From NCBI GenBank assembly GCA_030145715.1, contig JAIXHQ010000008.1:1-64000 (forward strand): a DNA stretch of 64,000 nt. Reading direction: 5' to 3'. This document shows positions 874 to 5,478 of this stretch, piece after piece (within the stretch, counting starts at the first letter, position 1; each line of letters opens with the position of its first letter). A model generated the notes under the pieces. The model searched no databases, was not told where the DNA came from, and was given only the letters and a program-made list of their open reading frames with translations. The position numbers and the translations under genes were made by a program. This DNA is from Sphingopyxis sp. (GTDB lineage Bacteria; Pseudomonadota; Alphaproteobacteria; Sphingomonadales; Sphingomonadaceae).

Positions 874-1899
874 CTATTGATTCAGGCCGTGCTTCTTCAG
901 TGCATGGCGAATCTGATCGTAACTCAGCCCCAGTGCTTCGGCCGCGACCTTCTGATTGAAACGGCATCGTGCCATCGTGTCCGACAATATCTGCTTTTCA
1001 TAGGCGTCCACGGCGGCGCGCAGGTCGCTCACCTGGCCAGGGGGTGCGGCGGCGGCCGGCGCTGCACCGCTGAAGGTTGCCGCCGCCGTTTCGTGTCGGA
1101 TCTGTGCCTTGCGCGGCGCGGGCTGCCATGGGCTGGCAAAGGGGTCGAAATGCAGCGCGTCGACGGGTCTGGCGGGATCGGCCCAGCGATAGATGGCGCG
1201 TTCGATGACATTCCGCAGTTCGCGGACATTGCCCGGCCAGCCATGTCCTTCCATCGCCGCCAGCGCGCGCGGGCCGAAACCCGGCCATTGTTCCCAGTCG
1301 AGTAGCGCTGCCATGCGCTGTCCGAAATATTCGGCCAGCACTTCAATATCGCCTTCGCGCGCGCGAAGCGGGGGCAGGGTGATGACCTCGAACGACAGGC
1401 GGTCGAGCAGGTCGGCGCGAAACCGGTGTTCATCGACCAGCGCAGGCAGATGCTCGTTCGTCGCGGCCACGATCCGCACATCGACGCGGATCGGGCGTGA
1501 CGATCCAACGCGCGTCACCTCGCCATATTCGACCGCGCGGAGCAGCCGTTCCTGCGCGCCCATCGACATCGTCGCCAGTTCGTCCAGGAACAGGGTGCCG
1601 CCGTCGGCTTCCTCGAACCGCCCCGCGCGGGTTCGCGTCGCGCCGGTAAAGGCGCCTGCCTCATGCCCGAACAGTTCGGACTCGATCAGTGTCTCGGGCA
1701 TCGCGGCACAGTTCATGATGACATAGGGCCGGTCCCAGCGGGTCGACAGGCGATGCAGGCGTTCGGCGATCAATTCCTTGCCTGTCCCGCGCTCGCCAAT
1801 GACAAGCACGGGGCGGTCAAGCGATGCGGCCATGCTGGCTCGTTCGACCGCGTCCTGAAACGCCGCGGATTGTCCGATGAACTGCGTTTCGTTGTCCAT
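874..1899 (-). CDS. pspF: PspF-type sigma-54 enhancer-binding activator
   Basis: The 341-residue protein is a bacterial enhancer-binding protein that activates sigma-54 promoters by ATP hydrolysis. There is no receiver domain: the AAA+ domain begins almost at the N-terminus, as in PspF (325 aa in E. coli), where activity is held down by direct PspA binding. Visible motifs are Walker A (GERGTGKE, about residues 31-38), the sigma-54 contact loop GAFTGA, and the Walker B region GGTLFLDE. A C-terminal Fis-type helix-turn-helix ends in SYDQIRHALKKHGLNQ. The ATG at 1897-1899 starts right at the conserved domain; an upstream in-frame extension would cross the control region. It is divergent from the psp operon, whose sigma-54 promoter lies about 100 bp away. 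Confidence 0.93.
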   Translation of the reverse strand: MDNETQFIGQSAAFQDAVERASMAASLDRPVLVIGERGTGKELIAERLHRLSTRWDRPYVIMNCAAMPETLIESELFGHEAGAFTGATRTRAGRFEEADGGTLFLDELATMSMGAQERLLRAVEYGEVTRVGSSRPIRVDVRIVAATNEHLPALVDEHRFRADLLDRLSFEVITLPPLRAREGDIEVLAEYFGQRMAALLDWEQWPGFGPRALAAMEGHGWPGNVRELRNVIERAIYRWADPARPVDALHFDPFASPWQPAPRKAQIRHETAAATFSGAAPAAAAPPGQVSDLRAAVDAYEKQILSDTMARCRFNQKVAAEALGLSYDQIRHALKKHGLNQ

Positions 1900-1999: not shown

Positions 2000-2015
2000 T
2001 GGCACGGCTCCTGCA
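2000..2015 (+). promoter_or_regulatory. sigma-54 (-24/-12) promoter of the psp operon
   Basis: TGGCAC-N5-CTGCA matches the sigma-54 consensus TGGCAC-N5-TTGCW at all but one of the specified bases. The invariant GG is at 2001-2002 and GC at 2013-2014, ten bases apart. It lies 63 bp upstream of the first small gene and in the pspF-psp intergenic region. The roughly 100 bp between it and the pspF start (1900-1999) is where PspF enhancer sites and the pspF promoter are expected. That stretch has two partly repeated TGGCAA-N-ATTT blocks near 1910 and 1931, which I cannot assign with confidence. Confidence 0.88.
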
Positions 2016-2077: not shown

Positions 2078-2248
2078 ATGAAGACGATATATGCCCAAGC
2101 CGCCAATTTCGTGCTCAGCACGGCCGGAGCGATGGCCATCCTCGTCGGCGTGATCGACCAGCCGCAGGTCGCTGCCAATGTCGGCGGCGCCGCCGTCGGC
2201 CCCTTGGTGGCCGCTGTCATGTCCCCGGCGGTCAGCCCGTTGGCCTGA
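2078..2248 (+). CDS. 56-residue hydrophobic protein, first gene of the psp transcript
   Basis: An ATG with a clear AGGAAGG ribosome site 8 bp upstream opens a 56-codon frame (MKTIYAQAANFVLSTAGAMA at the N-terminus, ending SPAVSPLA). Nearly all of it is hydrophobic or small residues, in two blocks (about residues 10-27 and 35-55) separated by a short polar DQPQ segment, suggesting a small membrane protein or hairpin. It is the first gene after the sigma-54 promoter, so it should be made in large amounts during the psp response. I do not recognise it as PspD, PspE or PspG. A strong hairpin separates it from pspA. Coding is supported by the ribosome site, position and composition, but not by known homology. 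Confidence 0.7.
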   Translation: MKTIYAQAANFVLSTAGAMAILVGVIDQPQVAANVGGAAVGPLVAAVMSPAVSPLA

Positions 2249-2348: not shown

Positions 2349-3011
2349 ATGGGTATTTTTTCACGAACCCGCGACATCATCGCCGCTAACGTCACCGACC
2401 TGCTCGACCGGGCCGAAGATCCCGAAAAAATGATCCGGCAGATCATTTTCGAAATGAACGAAACGCTCGTCGAAGTCCGCGCCTCTGCTGCCCGCACAAT
2501 CGCGGATCAAAAGGAAATGCGCCGCCATATCGCCAAGCTGGAAAGCCTGCAGGACAGTTGGAAGGAAAAGGCCGAACTGGCGCTGTCAAAGGATCGCGAA
2601 GACCTTGCTACGGCGGCGCTCGTCGAAAAGCAGAAGGCCGGCGACATGGCCGACAAGCTGAAAGCGGAGATCGCCGTCCTCGACGAGGCGTTGACGGGCT
2701 ATGAAGCCGACATCGCCAAGCTCCAGAAAAAGCTGAGCGAAGCCCGCGCCCGCCAGTCGAGTGTCGTCAACCGCCTTGCAAGCGCTGAAAACCGCTACAA
2801 GCTGCGTGAGATGACCAACGGCGACCGGGTCGAAGACGCCTTCTCGCGTTTCGAGATACTCGAACGCCGCGTCGATGAAGCCGAAGGCCGCGCCGACGCG
2901 CTGAACCTCGGTTATAAAAAGTCACTCGACGAGGAAATCGCCGAACTGCAGGCTGCCGACAAGGTCGCTGACGAACTCGCCGCGCTGAAAGCGGCGCAGG
3001 GTAAGAATTAA
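2349..3011 (+). CDS. pspA: phage shock protein A (ESCRT-III-like membrane effector and PspF inhibitor)
   Basis: PspA binds and supports damaged inner membrane and, when not engaged, holds PspF inactive. The product is 220 residues (222 in E. coli) and starts MGIFSRTRDIIAANVTDLLD, the amphipathic membrane-binding helix, followed by EDPEKMIRQII. The remainder is almost continuous coiled coil rich in Lys, Glu and Ala. The start ATG at 2349 has AGGAG upstream; the longer in-frame extension beginning near 2178 overlaps the preceding gene and hairpin and is not used. pspB follows 12 bp downstream. Expression is expected from the sigma-54 promoter at 2000. Confidence 0.97.
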   Translation: MGIFSRTRDIIAANVTDLLDRAEDPEKMIRQIIFEMNETLVEVRASAARTIADQKEMRRHIAKLESLQDSWKEKAELALSKDREDLATAALVEKQKAGDMADKLKAEIAVLDEALTGYEADIAKLQKKLSEARARQSSVVNRLASAENRYKLREMTNGDRVEDAFSRFEILERRVDEAEGRADALNLGYKKSLDEEIAELQAADKVADELAALKAAQGKN

Positions 3012-3023
3012 GGAGCCGGGCCG

Positions 3024-3302
3024 ATGGAAGACGTAATCGTCCCGATCGTGGTCGTCCCTGCGATCTTCCTCGGTCTGCCCTGGCTGATCCTCCACTACGT
3101 CACCAAGTGGAAACAGGCCAAGACGCTGACCGGAGAAGATGAGCAGTTGCTCGACGAACTGTACGACACCGCGCGTCGGCTCGAAAATCGTCTGCACACC
3201 GTCGAACGGATCATCAGTGCCGACAATCCCGATTTCCGCCCCGCGGTTCGCCGCGATGAAGATATGGCGCAACTCGACGACTATAAGACCCGGAGGAACT
3301 AA
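3024..3302 (+). CDS. pspB: phage shock protein B
   Basis: A 92-residue inner-membrane protein with one N-terminal membrane segment (about residues 4-27, ending LPWLILHYVTKW). A cytoplasmic coiled coil carries the PspB signature around RLENRLHTVERIISADNPDFRP. In the characterised systems PspB works with PspC to sense envelope stress and draw PspA away from PspF. It is somewhat longer than E. coli PspB (74 aa) because of a charged C-terminal extension. A ribosome site (AAGGAG) precedes the ATG. The tail around RLHTVERI recurs in the downstream small genes. Confidence 0.93.
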   Translation: MEDVIVPIVVVPAIFLGLPWLILHYVTKWKQAKTLTGEDEQLLDELYDTARRLENRLHTVERIISADNPDFRPAVRRDEDMAQLDDYKTRRN

Positions 3303-3303
3303 G

Positions 3304-3681
3304 ATGTCTGCCAGCCGCACGAAATTCTATCTCGACAAGCAGAACGCCAAATGGAGCGGCGTGTGTGCCGGGATCGCGGACTATACGGGCATCGACGTCC
3401 TTTGGATCCGCGTCGCGGCCGTCCTTGGCACGCTGATGGGATCGGGCGTCCTGATCCTCGTCTATTTCCTCATCGCATGGATGGCGACGCCCCGGCCTTT
3501 TGCGCTTTATGGTTCGAATGACGAAGCGAAATTCTGGCAGGGCGTCAGGTCGAACCCCAGTGCGTCGACGCGCGACATTCGTTCGCGCTTCCGCGACATC
3601 GACCGCCGACTTGCTGACATCGAACAATATTACACCAGTCACAACCGCCGCCTCTCCGACGAGATCGACGCGCTCCGCTGA
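3304..3681 (+). CDS. pspC: phage shock protein C (PspC-domain membrane sensor)
   Basis: The 125-residue protein begins with a PspC domain (about residues 6-63): LDKQNAKWSGVCAGIADYTG, then DVLWIRVAAVL and a long membrane segment ending LIAWMATPRP. The cytoplasmic or periplasmic tail is helical, and its last 24 residues (RLADIEQYY...LSDEIDALR) resemble the tail of the product encoded at 4031-4354 at 14 of 24 ungapped positions. The start ATG directly follows the pspB stop with one intervening base. It should act with PspB as the stress sensor upstream of PspA/PspF. Confidence 0.94.
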   Translation: MSASRTKFYLDKQNAKWSGVCAGIADYTGIDVLWIRVAAVLGTLMGSGVLILVYFLIAWMATPRPFALYGSNDEAKFWQGVRSNPSASTRDIRSRFRDIDRRLADIEQYYTSHNRRLSDEIDALR

Positions 3682-3719
3682 AACAGCGGGCAATGGGGCA
3701 GGCAACAGGGAGAATAGAA

Positions 3720-4019
3720 ATGAATATCGGTGGGACCGGTTTCGTCCTGGCCATCATCGCATTGTCGATCGGCGGCTGGATGTTCACCACCTGGATCCGT
3801 GCGAAGCATGGTTATCCGATTGAAAATGAATGGGGCGGTGCGGTTCATCGATCCGACCCCGACGCTGATCGAAAAATCGCCTTGCTGATGGATGACAATG
3901 CCAAGCTGGCGGGACAGGTTAGCCGACTGGAAGATCGGATTTCGGTGCTGGAACGCATTGCGACGGAGAATAACGGACAGGCGGCCCAACTTGCCGACCA
4001 GATCGACCGTCTGCGCTGA
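3720..4019 (+). CDS. PspB-like small membrane/coiled-coil protein, tandem copy 1
   Basis: The product has 99 residues: an N-terminal membrane segment (about 5-24), the motif GGWMFTTWIRAKHGYP, an acidic linker and a C-terminal coiled coil (RISVLERIATENN...LADQIDRLR). The coil resembles the PspB tail (RLHTVERIISADN) and its end resembles the PspC terminus (EIDALR). AGGGAGA lies upstream of the ATG. It lies 38 bp after pspC and 11 bp before the next copy on the same strand, so it is almost certainly in the psp transcript. A role as a further membrane partner of PspA/B/C is inferred. I do not recognise a named family. Confidence 0.8.
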   Translation: MNIGGTGFVLAIIALSIGGWMFTTWIRAKHGYPIENEWGGAVHRSDPDADRKIALLMDDNAKLAGQVSRLEDRISVLERIATENNGQAAQLADQIDRLR

Positions 4020-4030
4020 GGGGAAAGAGA

Positions 4031-4354
4031 ATGGACTTCATCATCTTCAAGGAAGCGATTGTTCCCGCCGCGGTCATTATCGGCCTTGCTTGTGTCGGCG
4101 GCTGGATTTTCACCACCTGGCTCCGCGTCAAGAACGGCTATCCGCTCGAAAATAGCTGGGGCAAGGCGGTCTATCCGCGCACCAGCGACGAAGCGATGGA
4201 GCGCGTCAAACTGATCGGACAGGAAAATGCCCAACTGCGCGCCGAGCTGGGCTCGGTGAAGGATCGCCTCGCGGTGATCGAGCGCATCGTCACCGACGAG
4301 GGTCACCGGCTGAGCCACGAGATCGACAAGCTGCGCGATGCACCGCTGAACTAA
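4031..4354 (+). CDS. PspB-like small membrane/coiled-coil protein, tandem copy 2
   Basis: A 107-residue paralogue of the preceding protein: membrane segment at about 8-29, then GGWIFTTWLRVKNGYPLENSWG, nearly repeating copy 1 over this stretch, then a charged coil (RLAVIERIVTDEG...LSHEIDKLR). The shared block just after the membrane segment points to gene duplication and to a conserved function of that juxtamembrane region. GGGAAAGAGA lies just upstream of the ATG. Its last helix aligns without gaps to the PspC C-terminus (14 of 24 identical). Confidence 0.8.
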   Translation: MDFIIFKEAIVPAAVIIGLACVGGWIFTTWLRVKNGYPLENSWGKAVYPRTSDEAMERVKLIGQENAQLRAELGSVKDRLAVIERIVTDEGHRLSHEIDKLRDAPLN

Positions 4355-4383
4355 CACAAGATTGAACGGAAAGGATAATCCCC

Positions 4384-4647
4384 ATGGGTCCCTTTGAAAT
4401 GGTTGTCGGCATCGTCCTCATCGTGACGATCGGCAGCATTATTCGCGCCAAGCACGGCATCCGCCGCGACAACAAGGGCAATGAATTTTTCGTCGGCACC
4501 GACAATGCGGAGACCAAGGCGCTGCAGAGCGAAATCCGCGCCTTGAAGGAGCGCATCCAGGTTCTCGAACGCATCGCGACCGATAATAATCGCGCCGTCA
4601 CGCTCGATCAGGAGATCGAGAAGCTGCGCGACAGCAGCAAAATCTGA
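4384..4647 (+). CDS. PspB-like small membrane/coiled-coil protein, tandem copy 3
   Basis: An 87-residue product with a shorter N-terminal membrane segment (about 5-20), then IRAKHG, a shortened form of the juxtamembrane motif of copies 1 and 2. The C-terminal coil RIQVLERIATDNN...LDQEIEKLR is again the PspB-like tail with the terminal EI-(D/E)-x-LR. GGAAAGGA lies upstream of the ATG. It has lost the FTTW and GYP parts of the motif, so it is the more divergent member. Same operon by spacing (29 bp from copy 2, 23 bp to copy 4). Confidence 0.78.
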   Translation: MGPFEMVVGIVLIVTIGSIIRAKHGIRRDNKGNEFFVGTDNAETKALQSEIRALKERIQVLERIATDNNRAVTLDQEIEKLRDSSKI

Positions 4648-4670
4648 TCGCCGGAAAAGGAGCAACGCTC

Positions 4671-4916
4671 ATGGCTTTTGTTACCCCCGACTTTACCGCC
4701 GTCGCCGCCGCGCTCGCCGCGCTCAGCATCATCAGCCTGGTGGCGCTGCGCGGGTGGCGCGACTGGATCCAGCTCAAGCGCGAGGAACTCGCCGCCGGTC
4801 ACGCCGTTCTGGCACAGGATTCCCGTGTGCCCAGCGCCGGATCGCGGATCGAGATCGCCGACCTCAAGGAACGGCTGCGCAAGCTGGAGGCCATCGCCGC
4901 CGGAGTGGATCTTTGA
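4671..4916 (+). CDS. PspB-like small membrane/coiled-coil protein, tandem copy 4
   Basis: An 81-residue product: hydrophobic segment about residues 8-25, a basic juxtamembrane stretch (RGWRDWIQLKREE), and a C-terminal helix IADLKERLRKLEAIAAGVDL. The layout and the RL-x-x-LE-x-I core repeat that of its neighbours, but the terminal EIDxLR is missing. AAAAGGAG lies just upstream of the ATG. It is the last gene of the run; a degenerate dispersed repeat follows and no clear terminator was seen. Function unknown; a psp-associated membrane role is inferred from context. Confidence 0.72.
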   Translation: MAFVTPDFTAVAAALAALSIISLVALRGWRDWIQLKREELAAGHAVLAQDSRVPSAGSRIEIADLKERLRKLEAIAAGVDL

Positions 4917-5067: not shown

Positions 5068-5478
5068 ATGCGCAGCCTGACCGACATTTTCGAAGAATAT
5101 GACTTTCTCGACGGCGACGATCGCTATCGTCTGCTGATCGATCTTGGCCGCGACCTTGAACCCATGCCCGACGCGCTCAAGACCGACGCGACGCTTGTGC
5201 GCGGCTGCTCGGCCAGCGTCTGGGTCTATCCGGTGCCGCGCGCGGATGGCCAGCTTCATTTCCTGGCCGACAGCAACGCCGCGATTACCAAGGGCATCGT
5301 CGCGCTGGTCCTTGCCGCGGTTCAGGACCGCCCCGCGACCGAGGTCGCCGCAATGGACGTCGCCGCCGCACTCGCCCCGTTCGACCTGACGCGCCAATTG
5401 TCGTCGAACCGGACGCAGGGCGTCCCCAACATGATCGCGCTGGTTCAGGACACCGCCCGCCGCCTCGCCGCAGATTGA
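5068..5478 (+). CDS. sufE: SufE family cysteine desulfurase sulfur acceptor
   Basis: A 136-residue SufE-type protein, which takes persulfide sulfur from the desulfurase SufS and passes it to the SufBCD scaffold for Fe-S cluster assembly. It begins MRSLTDIFEEYDFLDGDDRY, continues LIDLGRDLEPMPD, and has the acceptor cysteine in VRGCSASVWVYP (about Cys50). A conserved C-terminal stretch follows (LTRQLSSNRTQGVPNMI). The start at 5068 was chosen because homology begins there; the upstream in-frame extension from 4984 runs through a dispersed repeat. No strong ribosome site is visible. No other suf genes are in this window. Confidence 0.92.
   Translation: MRSLTDIFEEYDFLDGDDRYRLLIDLGRDLEPMPDALKTDATLVRGCSASVWVYPVPRADGQLHFLADSNAAITKGIVALVLAAVQDRPATEVAAMDVAAALAPFDLTRQLSSNRTQGVPNMIALVQDTARRLAAD

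Follow-up and report, generated by a model that had tools for sequence, protein, structure and literature searches.

The psp operon of the Sphingomonadaceae is extended past pspC by a tandem array of small genes that is real, family-wide and variable in copy number. We analyzed a 64,000-nucleotide stretch of Sphingopyxis sp. DNA (the window; GCA_030145715.1, contig JAIXHQ010000008.1, positions 1 to 64,000), together with related loci and genomes. We put at around even the chance that the array encodes co-induced membrane proteins that engage the Psp complex, binding PspA or tuning PspB and PspC via a shared tail. The way in which PspB and PspC detect membrane damage and free PspA from PspF is, to our knowledge, not fully understood.

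Organization of the psp locus and its array

The features of the window are summarized in Table 1. The four psp genes pspF, pspA, pspB and pspC each score above their curated cut-offs, whereas c1–c4 exceed none among the Pfam and NCBIfam models. A sequence-only reading had placed four consecutive small genes after pspC, and the coordinates agree. They lie on one strand with pspC, spaced by 11–38 bases, and each encodes a protein with one hydrophobic N-terminal segment. All genes from the sigma54-like site through the array to sufE are co-directional. The array is therefore placed as an operon member would be, co-directional with pspABC and 3′ of a PspF-type sigma54 pattern, and is probably co-transcribed with them.

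Table 1. Features of the psp locus in the window.
Feature	Position	Strand	Assignment
pspF, divergent sigma54 activator	874..1899	-	TIGR02974 471.5 bits, cut-off 443.55
sigma54-type -24/-12 promoter TGGCAC-N5-CTGC, TGGCACGGCTCCTGC	2000-2014	+	pattern match
small hydrophobic ORF, 56 aa, between promoter and pspA	2078..2248	+	
pspA	2349..3011	+	TIGR02977 271.7 bits, cut-off 242.95
pspB	3024..3302	+	TIGR02976 87 bits, cut-off 51.7
pspC	3304..3681	+	TIGR02978 118.4 bits, cut-off 104
c1 (copy 1), 99 aa, N-terminal TM head GGWxFTTWxRxKxGYP and coil tail	3720..4019	+	
c2 (copy 2), 107 aa, paralogue of c1	4031..4354	+	
c3 (copy 3), 87 aa, weak full-length PspB match	4384..4647	+	
c4 (copy 4), 81 aa, remoter relative, conserved C-terminus	4671..4916	+	
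sufE-family gene, usual 3′ neighbour of array	5068..5478	+	PF02657 E 4.6e-33

We compared 61 loci, comprising the window and 60 regions of ~10 kb around matches to copy 1. Every region contains pspF, pspA, pspB and pspC with an array directly 3′ of pspC, a count that is not a prevalence because the 60 regions were chosen for their copy-1 match. sufE follows the array in 58 regions. The number of members varies from 3 to 8 (3 in 4 loci, 4 in 17, 5 in 21, 6 in 14, 7 in 4 and 8 in 1), and neighboring genes overlap by 1 or 4 bases in some loci, as coupled genes do. By iterated profile assignment the members fall into five subfamilies, c1 (n = 54), c2 (63), X (71), c3 (60) and c4 (57), the commonest order being c1-c2-X-c3-c4 (12 of 61 loci). 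Where c4 is present it is the last member, in 57 of 57 loci. Subfamily X is absent from the window; it is present in all 41 named loci titled Sphingopyxis, in 39 exactly between c2 and c3, and in 65 of the 80 named loci overall.

In Sphingomonas parapaucimobilis the locus lies on an 880-kb replicon (L330), and a 222-aa protein with no Pfam match, not an array member, is encoded between c4 and sufE (3737-4405). RefSeq (via PLSDB) labels c1, c3 and c4 of this species as ‘hypothetical protein’ in the one record NZ_CP155749.1. We considered spread of the array on plasmids and rejected it; a tblastn search with c2 returned one record, an 880-kb Sphingomonas replicon, and a search with a sister-family gene returned none.

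A -24/-12 pattern is found 200–700 bp 5′ of pspA in 48 of the 61 loci and is unmatched in 13; it is absent from all 122 control segments of 500 bp taken within the operons. Between promoter and pspA there is a small hydrophobic ORF in 43 of the 48 promoter-matched loci, a count made without a shuffled control, and a longer protein in 3 more. Thirty-two of the 43 ORFs end in [LIVM]A. The ORF in the window has no family match in Pfam or NCBIfam. In L091, L104 and L108 a protein of 151–191 aa with a similar hydrophobic N-terminus occupies this position, with a match to the Pfam TonB C-terminal domain over the cut-off in L104 (E 2e-7) and just below it in L108 (E 7.7e-5). In an excerpted table of PMC8237431 the Zymomonas gene ZMO1062, called a putative pspD, stands beside pspA among heat-changed genes; from the gene numbering it may be the counterpart of the small ORF in the window.

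Relationship of the array tails to PspC and PspB

The motif GGW-x-FTTW-x-R-x-K-x-GYP reported for copies 1 and 2 is exact, as is IRAKHG in copy 3. The statement that three copies end in EI(D/E)xLR, by comparison, stands in part. The motif is present in copies 2 and 3, where it lies 5 residues short of the end, but copy 1 terminates in QIDRLR. It occurs in none of 57 copy-4 homologues, window copy 4 included, which have instead a very conserved terminus, SRIEIADLKERxRKLEAIAAGVDL. The core L-(K/E)-(E/D)-R-hydrophobic-x-x-L-E-R-I-(A/V)-T-D was found in 300 of the 305 array members, with E at the key place in 299 of these. The last 24 residues of PspC match copy 2 at 14 positions, as in the sequence-only reading, and none of 2000 shuffles of the last 60 residues of copy 2 reaches this. 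The match to copy 1 is weak (8 of 24, reached by 30 of 2000 shuffles), and copy 3, copy 4 and PspB each gave a negative result in these ungapped tests of single sequences.

Alignments of the subfamilies were compared profile to profile using HHalign, with the last 52 columns of PspC taken as its tail. c1, c2, X and c3 are mutually related with probabilities of 98.9–99.9, those among c1, c2 and c3 being above 99. Against the PspC tail the values are 93.8 for c1, 96.2 for c2, 86.0 for X and 90.2 for c3, with E of 5e-6 to 2e-9. Against PspB they are 90.2 for c2 (61 columns), 74.5 for X (70 columns), 41.4 for c1 (22 columns) and 16.6 for c3; the matches of c2 and X extend over the transmembrane (TM) segment and coil, most of their length. 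c4 is related to X (93.2) and c3 (89.8), but falls to 0.5 against PspB and to 0.2 against the PspC tail. In the same alignments PspB and the PspC tail are themselves weakly matched (6.9). Controls reached at most 10.3 with PspA, 0.3 with SufE, 14.2 in 15 column shuffles per pair and 36.1 with reversed profiles, where one control reached 36; the array tails are coiled coils.

As judged by these profile comparisons, four of the five subfamilies have a tail homologous to that at the C-terminus of PspC, with weaker homology to PspB. The earlier view of a duplicated family is thus borne out, copies 1, 2 and 3 being clear paralogues and copy 4 remoter. Its description as PspB-derived is apt in so far as c2 and X match PspB over most of their length, but the tails are closer to that of PspC and c4 resembles neither. 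Individual members were also scored against the PspC and PspB models at E ≤ 0.01. In a set of 27 from c1 and c2, 11 match PspC and 1 matches PspB; in a set of 24 from c3 and X, the counts are 12 and 15. Proteins that score above the PspB cut-off in other alphaproteobacterial families are also retrieved by the c3/X profile (A2), over TM segment and coil (G615, E 2.3e-5; G560, E 1.8e-4).

Array proteins and the C-terminal tail of PspC (TIGR02978) share the module R-hydrophobic-x-x-(L/I/M)-E-x-x-x-T-(D/S). They differ in that the window copies are without the N-terminal PspC domain (PF04024; no match in c1–c4 at E ≤ 1), having a single hydrophobic segment at that end. The array proteins are small, as PspB (TIGR02976, PF06667) is, with an N-terminal TM segment and a predicted cytoplasmic coil that may be of the PspB type, and c3 matches TIGR02976 over positions 6–68 of 75. 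Yet the window copies are far under the curated cut-offs of 51.7 bits (TIGR02976) and 25.6 bits (PF06667), with c3 scoring 22.8 (E 8.2e-5) and 13.8 bits, c1 13.0 and 12.6 bits, and c2 and c4 giving no match to either at E ≤ 1. Moreover an ordinary pspB is also present, and PspB runs on with ADNPDF after the core motif and is without EI(D/E)xLR.

Could these be generic coiled coils that merely adjoin psp and have no relation to it? Single-protein Pfam matches under the cut-off are largely to unrelated coiled coils, and matches to solved structures are mostly coiled coils with E of 0.046 or worse. The shuffled, reversed and PspA controls largely exclude this explanation, since the likeness exceeds that of a generic coiled coil, in agreement with the sequence-only reading. 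With the conserved locus and the joint absence with pspC (see below) also against it, we regard it as very improbable.

The content of lysine plus arginine is higher after than before the hydrophobic segment in 298 of the 305 members (c1 54/54, c2 61/63, c3 58/60, c4 56/57, X 69/71). This distribution predicts cytoplasmic tails, in the same compartment as PspA and PspF. AlphaFold2 models of c1 (mean pLDDT 68.6) and c4 (82.3) have two helices only, which in c1 are one of TM length and a second that is long. PspB gave no match to solved structures at E ≤ 1. In E. coli a leucine-zipper region of PspC is needed for interaction with PspA and for induction, while contact between PspB and PspC is made by their membrane regions, according to PMC3068692. 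The same paper considers the zipper region putatively periplasmic and allows two topologies, so the PspC tail itself may or may not lie inside. For Yersinia, passages of PMC5596341 report that the C-terminal cytoplasmic domain of PspC binds PspA in the on state, and cite a title in which the cytoplasmic domains of PspB and PspC silence the response.

Distribution of the array and its relatives

Copy 1 is matched in 36 of 60 genomes in a set of relatives (35 of the window's genus) and in 245 of 298 Sphingomonadaceae genomes at E ≤ 1e-3 (229 at E ≤ 1e-5), the window's own genome being counted in each. Given this recurrence the array is not a chance arrangement. The A2 profile matches 33 of the 53 family genomes missed by c1, 31 of them at E ≤ 1e-9.

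The array and pspC occur together. Taking E ≤ 1e-10 as positive, 281 of the 298 genomes have pspC, and strong array matches (c1 at E ≤ 1e-5 or A2 at E ≤ 1e-9) are found in 259 of these vs 1 of 17 pspC-negative genomes (Fisher p 3e-15, ignoring shared ancestry). That one genome (G140) is 66% complete. Weak matches, 16 of 245 for c1 and 2 of 33 for A2, may be to PspB or PspC themselves and lie outside this count; when weak matches are included the array is present in 277 of 281 pspC-positive genomes (p 7e-22). In sister families a c3/X-like gene is found in 16 of 19 PspC-positive and 0 of 5 PspC-negative genomes (p 0.0013, again ignoring shared ancestry, and with four of the five negative genomes belonging to one family).

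In a tree of c1, c2, X and c3 with 16–17 members per class, c4 being left out, c1 (support 0.72), c2 (0.99) and X (0.89) form clades, and c3 forms a clade with one outside sequence (0.89). These clades span the family, and the duplications therefore predate much of its radiation. The tail is conserved while the heads vary between subfamilies, each with its own juxtamembrane motifs. It is conceivable that each head reads its own membrane signal (lipid, potential or a mislocalised protein), with the common tail feeding PspA. Such diversification of sensors would suit subfamilies that are ancient, have private juxtamembrane motifs, keep c4 in last place and vary in gene number between genomes, but simple dosage or structural roles fit the same data, and we consider it rather unlikely. 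One metagenome-assembled alphaproteobacterium (L165, 2963-3274) has a chimera with a c1 head and a c3 end as the sole tail gene before c4, and is without c2, X and c3; at the DNA level its 5′ 255 bases align to c1 and its 3′ ~65 bases to c3. This structure suggests that recombination between tail repeats caused a deletion, although the chimera rests on a single draft contig and an assembly error could mimic it.

In a class-wide sample of 385 genomes drawn from a larger group, matches spanning the c1/c2 profile are confined to the 5 Sphingomonadaceae in it, and 22 other genomes have weak, mostly tail-only matches at E ≤ 0.01. PspB is above cut-off in 40 genomes of this sample, 35 outside the Sphingomonadaceae. 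Outside the family A2 matches 9 of the 385 genomes at E ≤ 1e-3, of which one, G532, is strong; it has two small genes by a dUTPase-like frame (judged by eye), ~80 kb from pspB. In two genomes of another alphaproteobacterial family (L295, 4826-5314; L296, 4063-4552) pspC precedes a pair of small TM genes. One has a PspC-type tail; the other duplicates pspB, and the end of its product is nearly identical to that of PspB in the same operon. The duplicate in L295 scores 39 bits against the cut-off of 25.6.

Nearer to the Sphingomonadaceae, we compared 24 genomes from the other families of their order. A clear c3/X-like gene is present in 16 of them, after two of 18 matches (G037 and G040), lying on PspC or at the PspB position, were dropped. 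In 14 of the 16 it is on another contig than pspC or at least 0.4 Mb away. G048 and G058 have one copy after pspC and a second elsewhere; in these two genomes, of one sister family (L326, L339), a second short PspC-domain gene lies between pspC and the c3-like gene. Dispersed copies seem rare within the Sphingomonadaceae, where 14 nearly closed genomes yield one strong case, G199 (E 5.9e-15), and a marginal one, G005 (E 0.007), and a further copy occurs in G306. The G306 gene (L338, 1413-1787), ~0.5 Mb from the psp locus, fuses the array tail to a CxxC zinc-ribbon-like head, just under the cut-off for DUF6487, with no membrane segment. The suggestion that the array always follows pspABC thus holds for the Sphingomonadaceae loci read, rare dispersed copies apart, and fails in the sister families, where the relative is usually unlinked.

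For 20 genes unlinked to psp we scanned the 350 bp upstream together with the first 60 bases of the gene itself (16 from sister families and 4 from G532, G199 and G306; L316 and L318 are nearly the same locus and the frame of L332 is doubtful). None of the 20 has the -24/-12 pattern, so we rejected the idea that they are orphan PspF targets, as pspG is, and the ancestral gene may not have been a target of PspF.

A relative that is usually unlinked to psp and has no sigma54-like site indicates that such a protein can exist outside the operon. The array proteins might then be membrane effectors, like E. coli PspD and PspG in role, that directly stabilise the membrane, with a tail that only forms homo- or hetero-oligomers and makes no contact with PspA–PspF signalling. 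Heads that differ on a conserved tail, and a c4 that has no PspC-like tail, are compatible with this. On the other hand a tail homologous to that of PspC and a distribution that follows PspC speak for contact with the core, and the array proteins have no match to a PspD or PspG family among the Pfam and NCBIfam matches listed. We view the effector role as possible, but somewhat doubtful.

Possible roles of the array

What the array does is a well-founded guess. Because the same tail is repeated on other heads in the same operon, and is absent without pspC, the proteins are best read as partners in docking or silencing, and a role in docking or sensing is plausible from the sequences. The PspF/sigma54-type psp operon of the Sphingomonadaceae is extended past pspC by tandem genes for small, putative single-pass inner-membrane proteins. 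Each comprises a variable N-terminal TM head, predicted to run from outside to inside, followed by a helical tail, predicted to be cytoplasmic, that carries the module R-hydrophobic-x-x-L-E-R-I-x-T-D ... E-I-(D/E)-x-L-R. On envelope stress they would be made together with PspA, PspB and PspC, enter the inner membrane and contact the Psp complex by the shared tail. There they may provide extra membrane docking sites for PspA, as the PspC tail does, or may hold the PspC tail silent, as PspB does. In either case the array would set the strength and speed with which PspA is drawn from PspF to the membrane. Given that c4 matches neither PspB nor the PspC tail, it may do something else.

Membrane-located PspD and PspG accompany the Psp proteins in E. 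coli. Their genes resemble the array as additional small genes of the psp regulon (PMC9239133), the excerpted text of which makes no mention of such arrays. Ravi et al. 2024 (PMC11237479) refer in one sentence to ‘PspB duplicates’ in psp operons, with AOL22920.1 as the example. These are likewise extra PspB genes in psp operons, but the parts of that main text at hand describe no array, subfamilies, copy-number range or phyletic mapping. No published account of the array was found among the matches listed from the open-licence literature.

The paralogues that share a tail, the chimera and the variable copy number offer natural material for a direct test of the role of the tail, and with the unlinked relatives of the sister families it is possible to tell psp-dependent roles from psp-independent ones. 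The array also provides a functional hypothesis for genes annotated as hypothetical proteins in the one RefSeq record noted above. More speculatively, the sphingomonad psp system could be modular, with one PspA-facing tail on several ancient heads, their number tuned by recombination between tail repeats, and PspA integrating the inputs or binding a multivalent platform. The sequences suggest that psp in the sphingomonads may have several membrane partners, compared with two in textbook bacteria.
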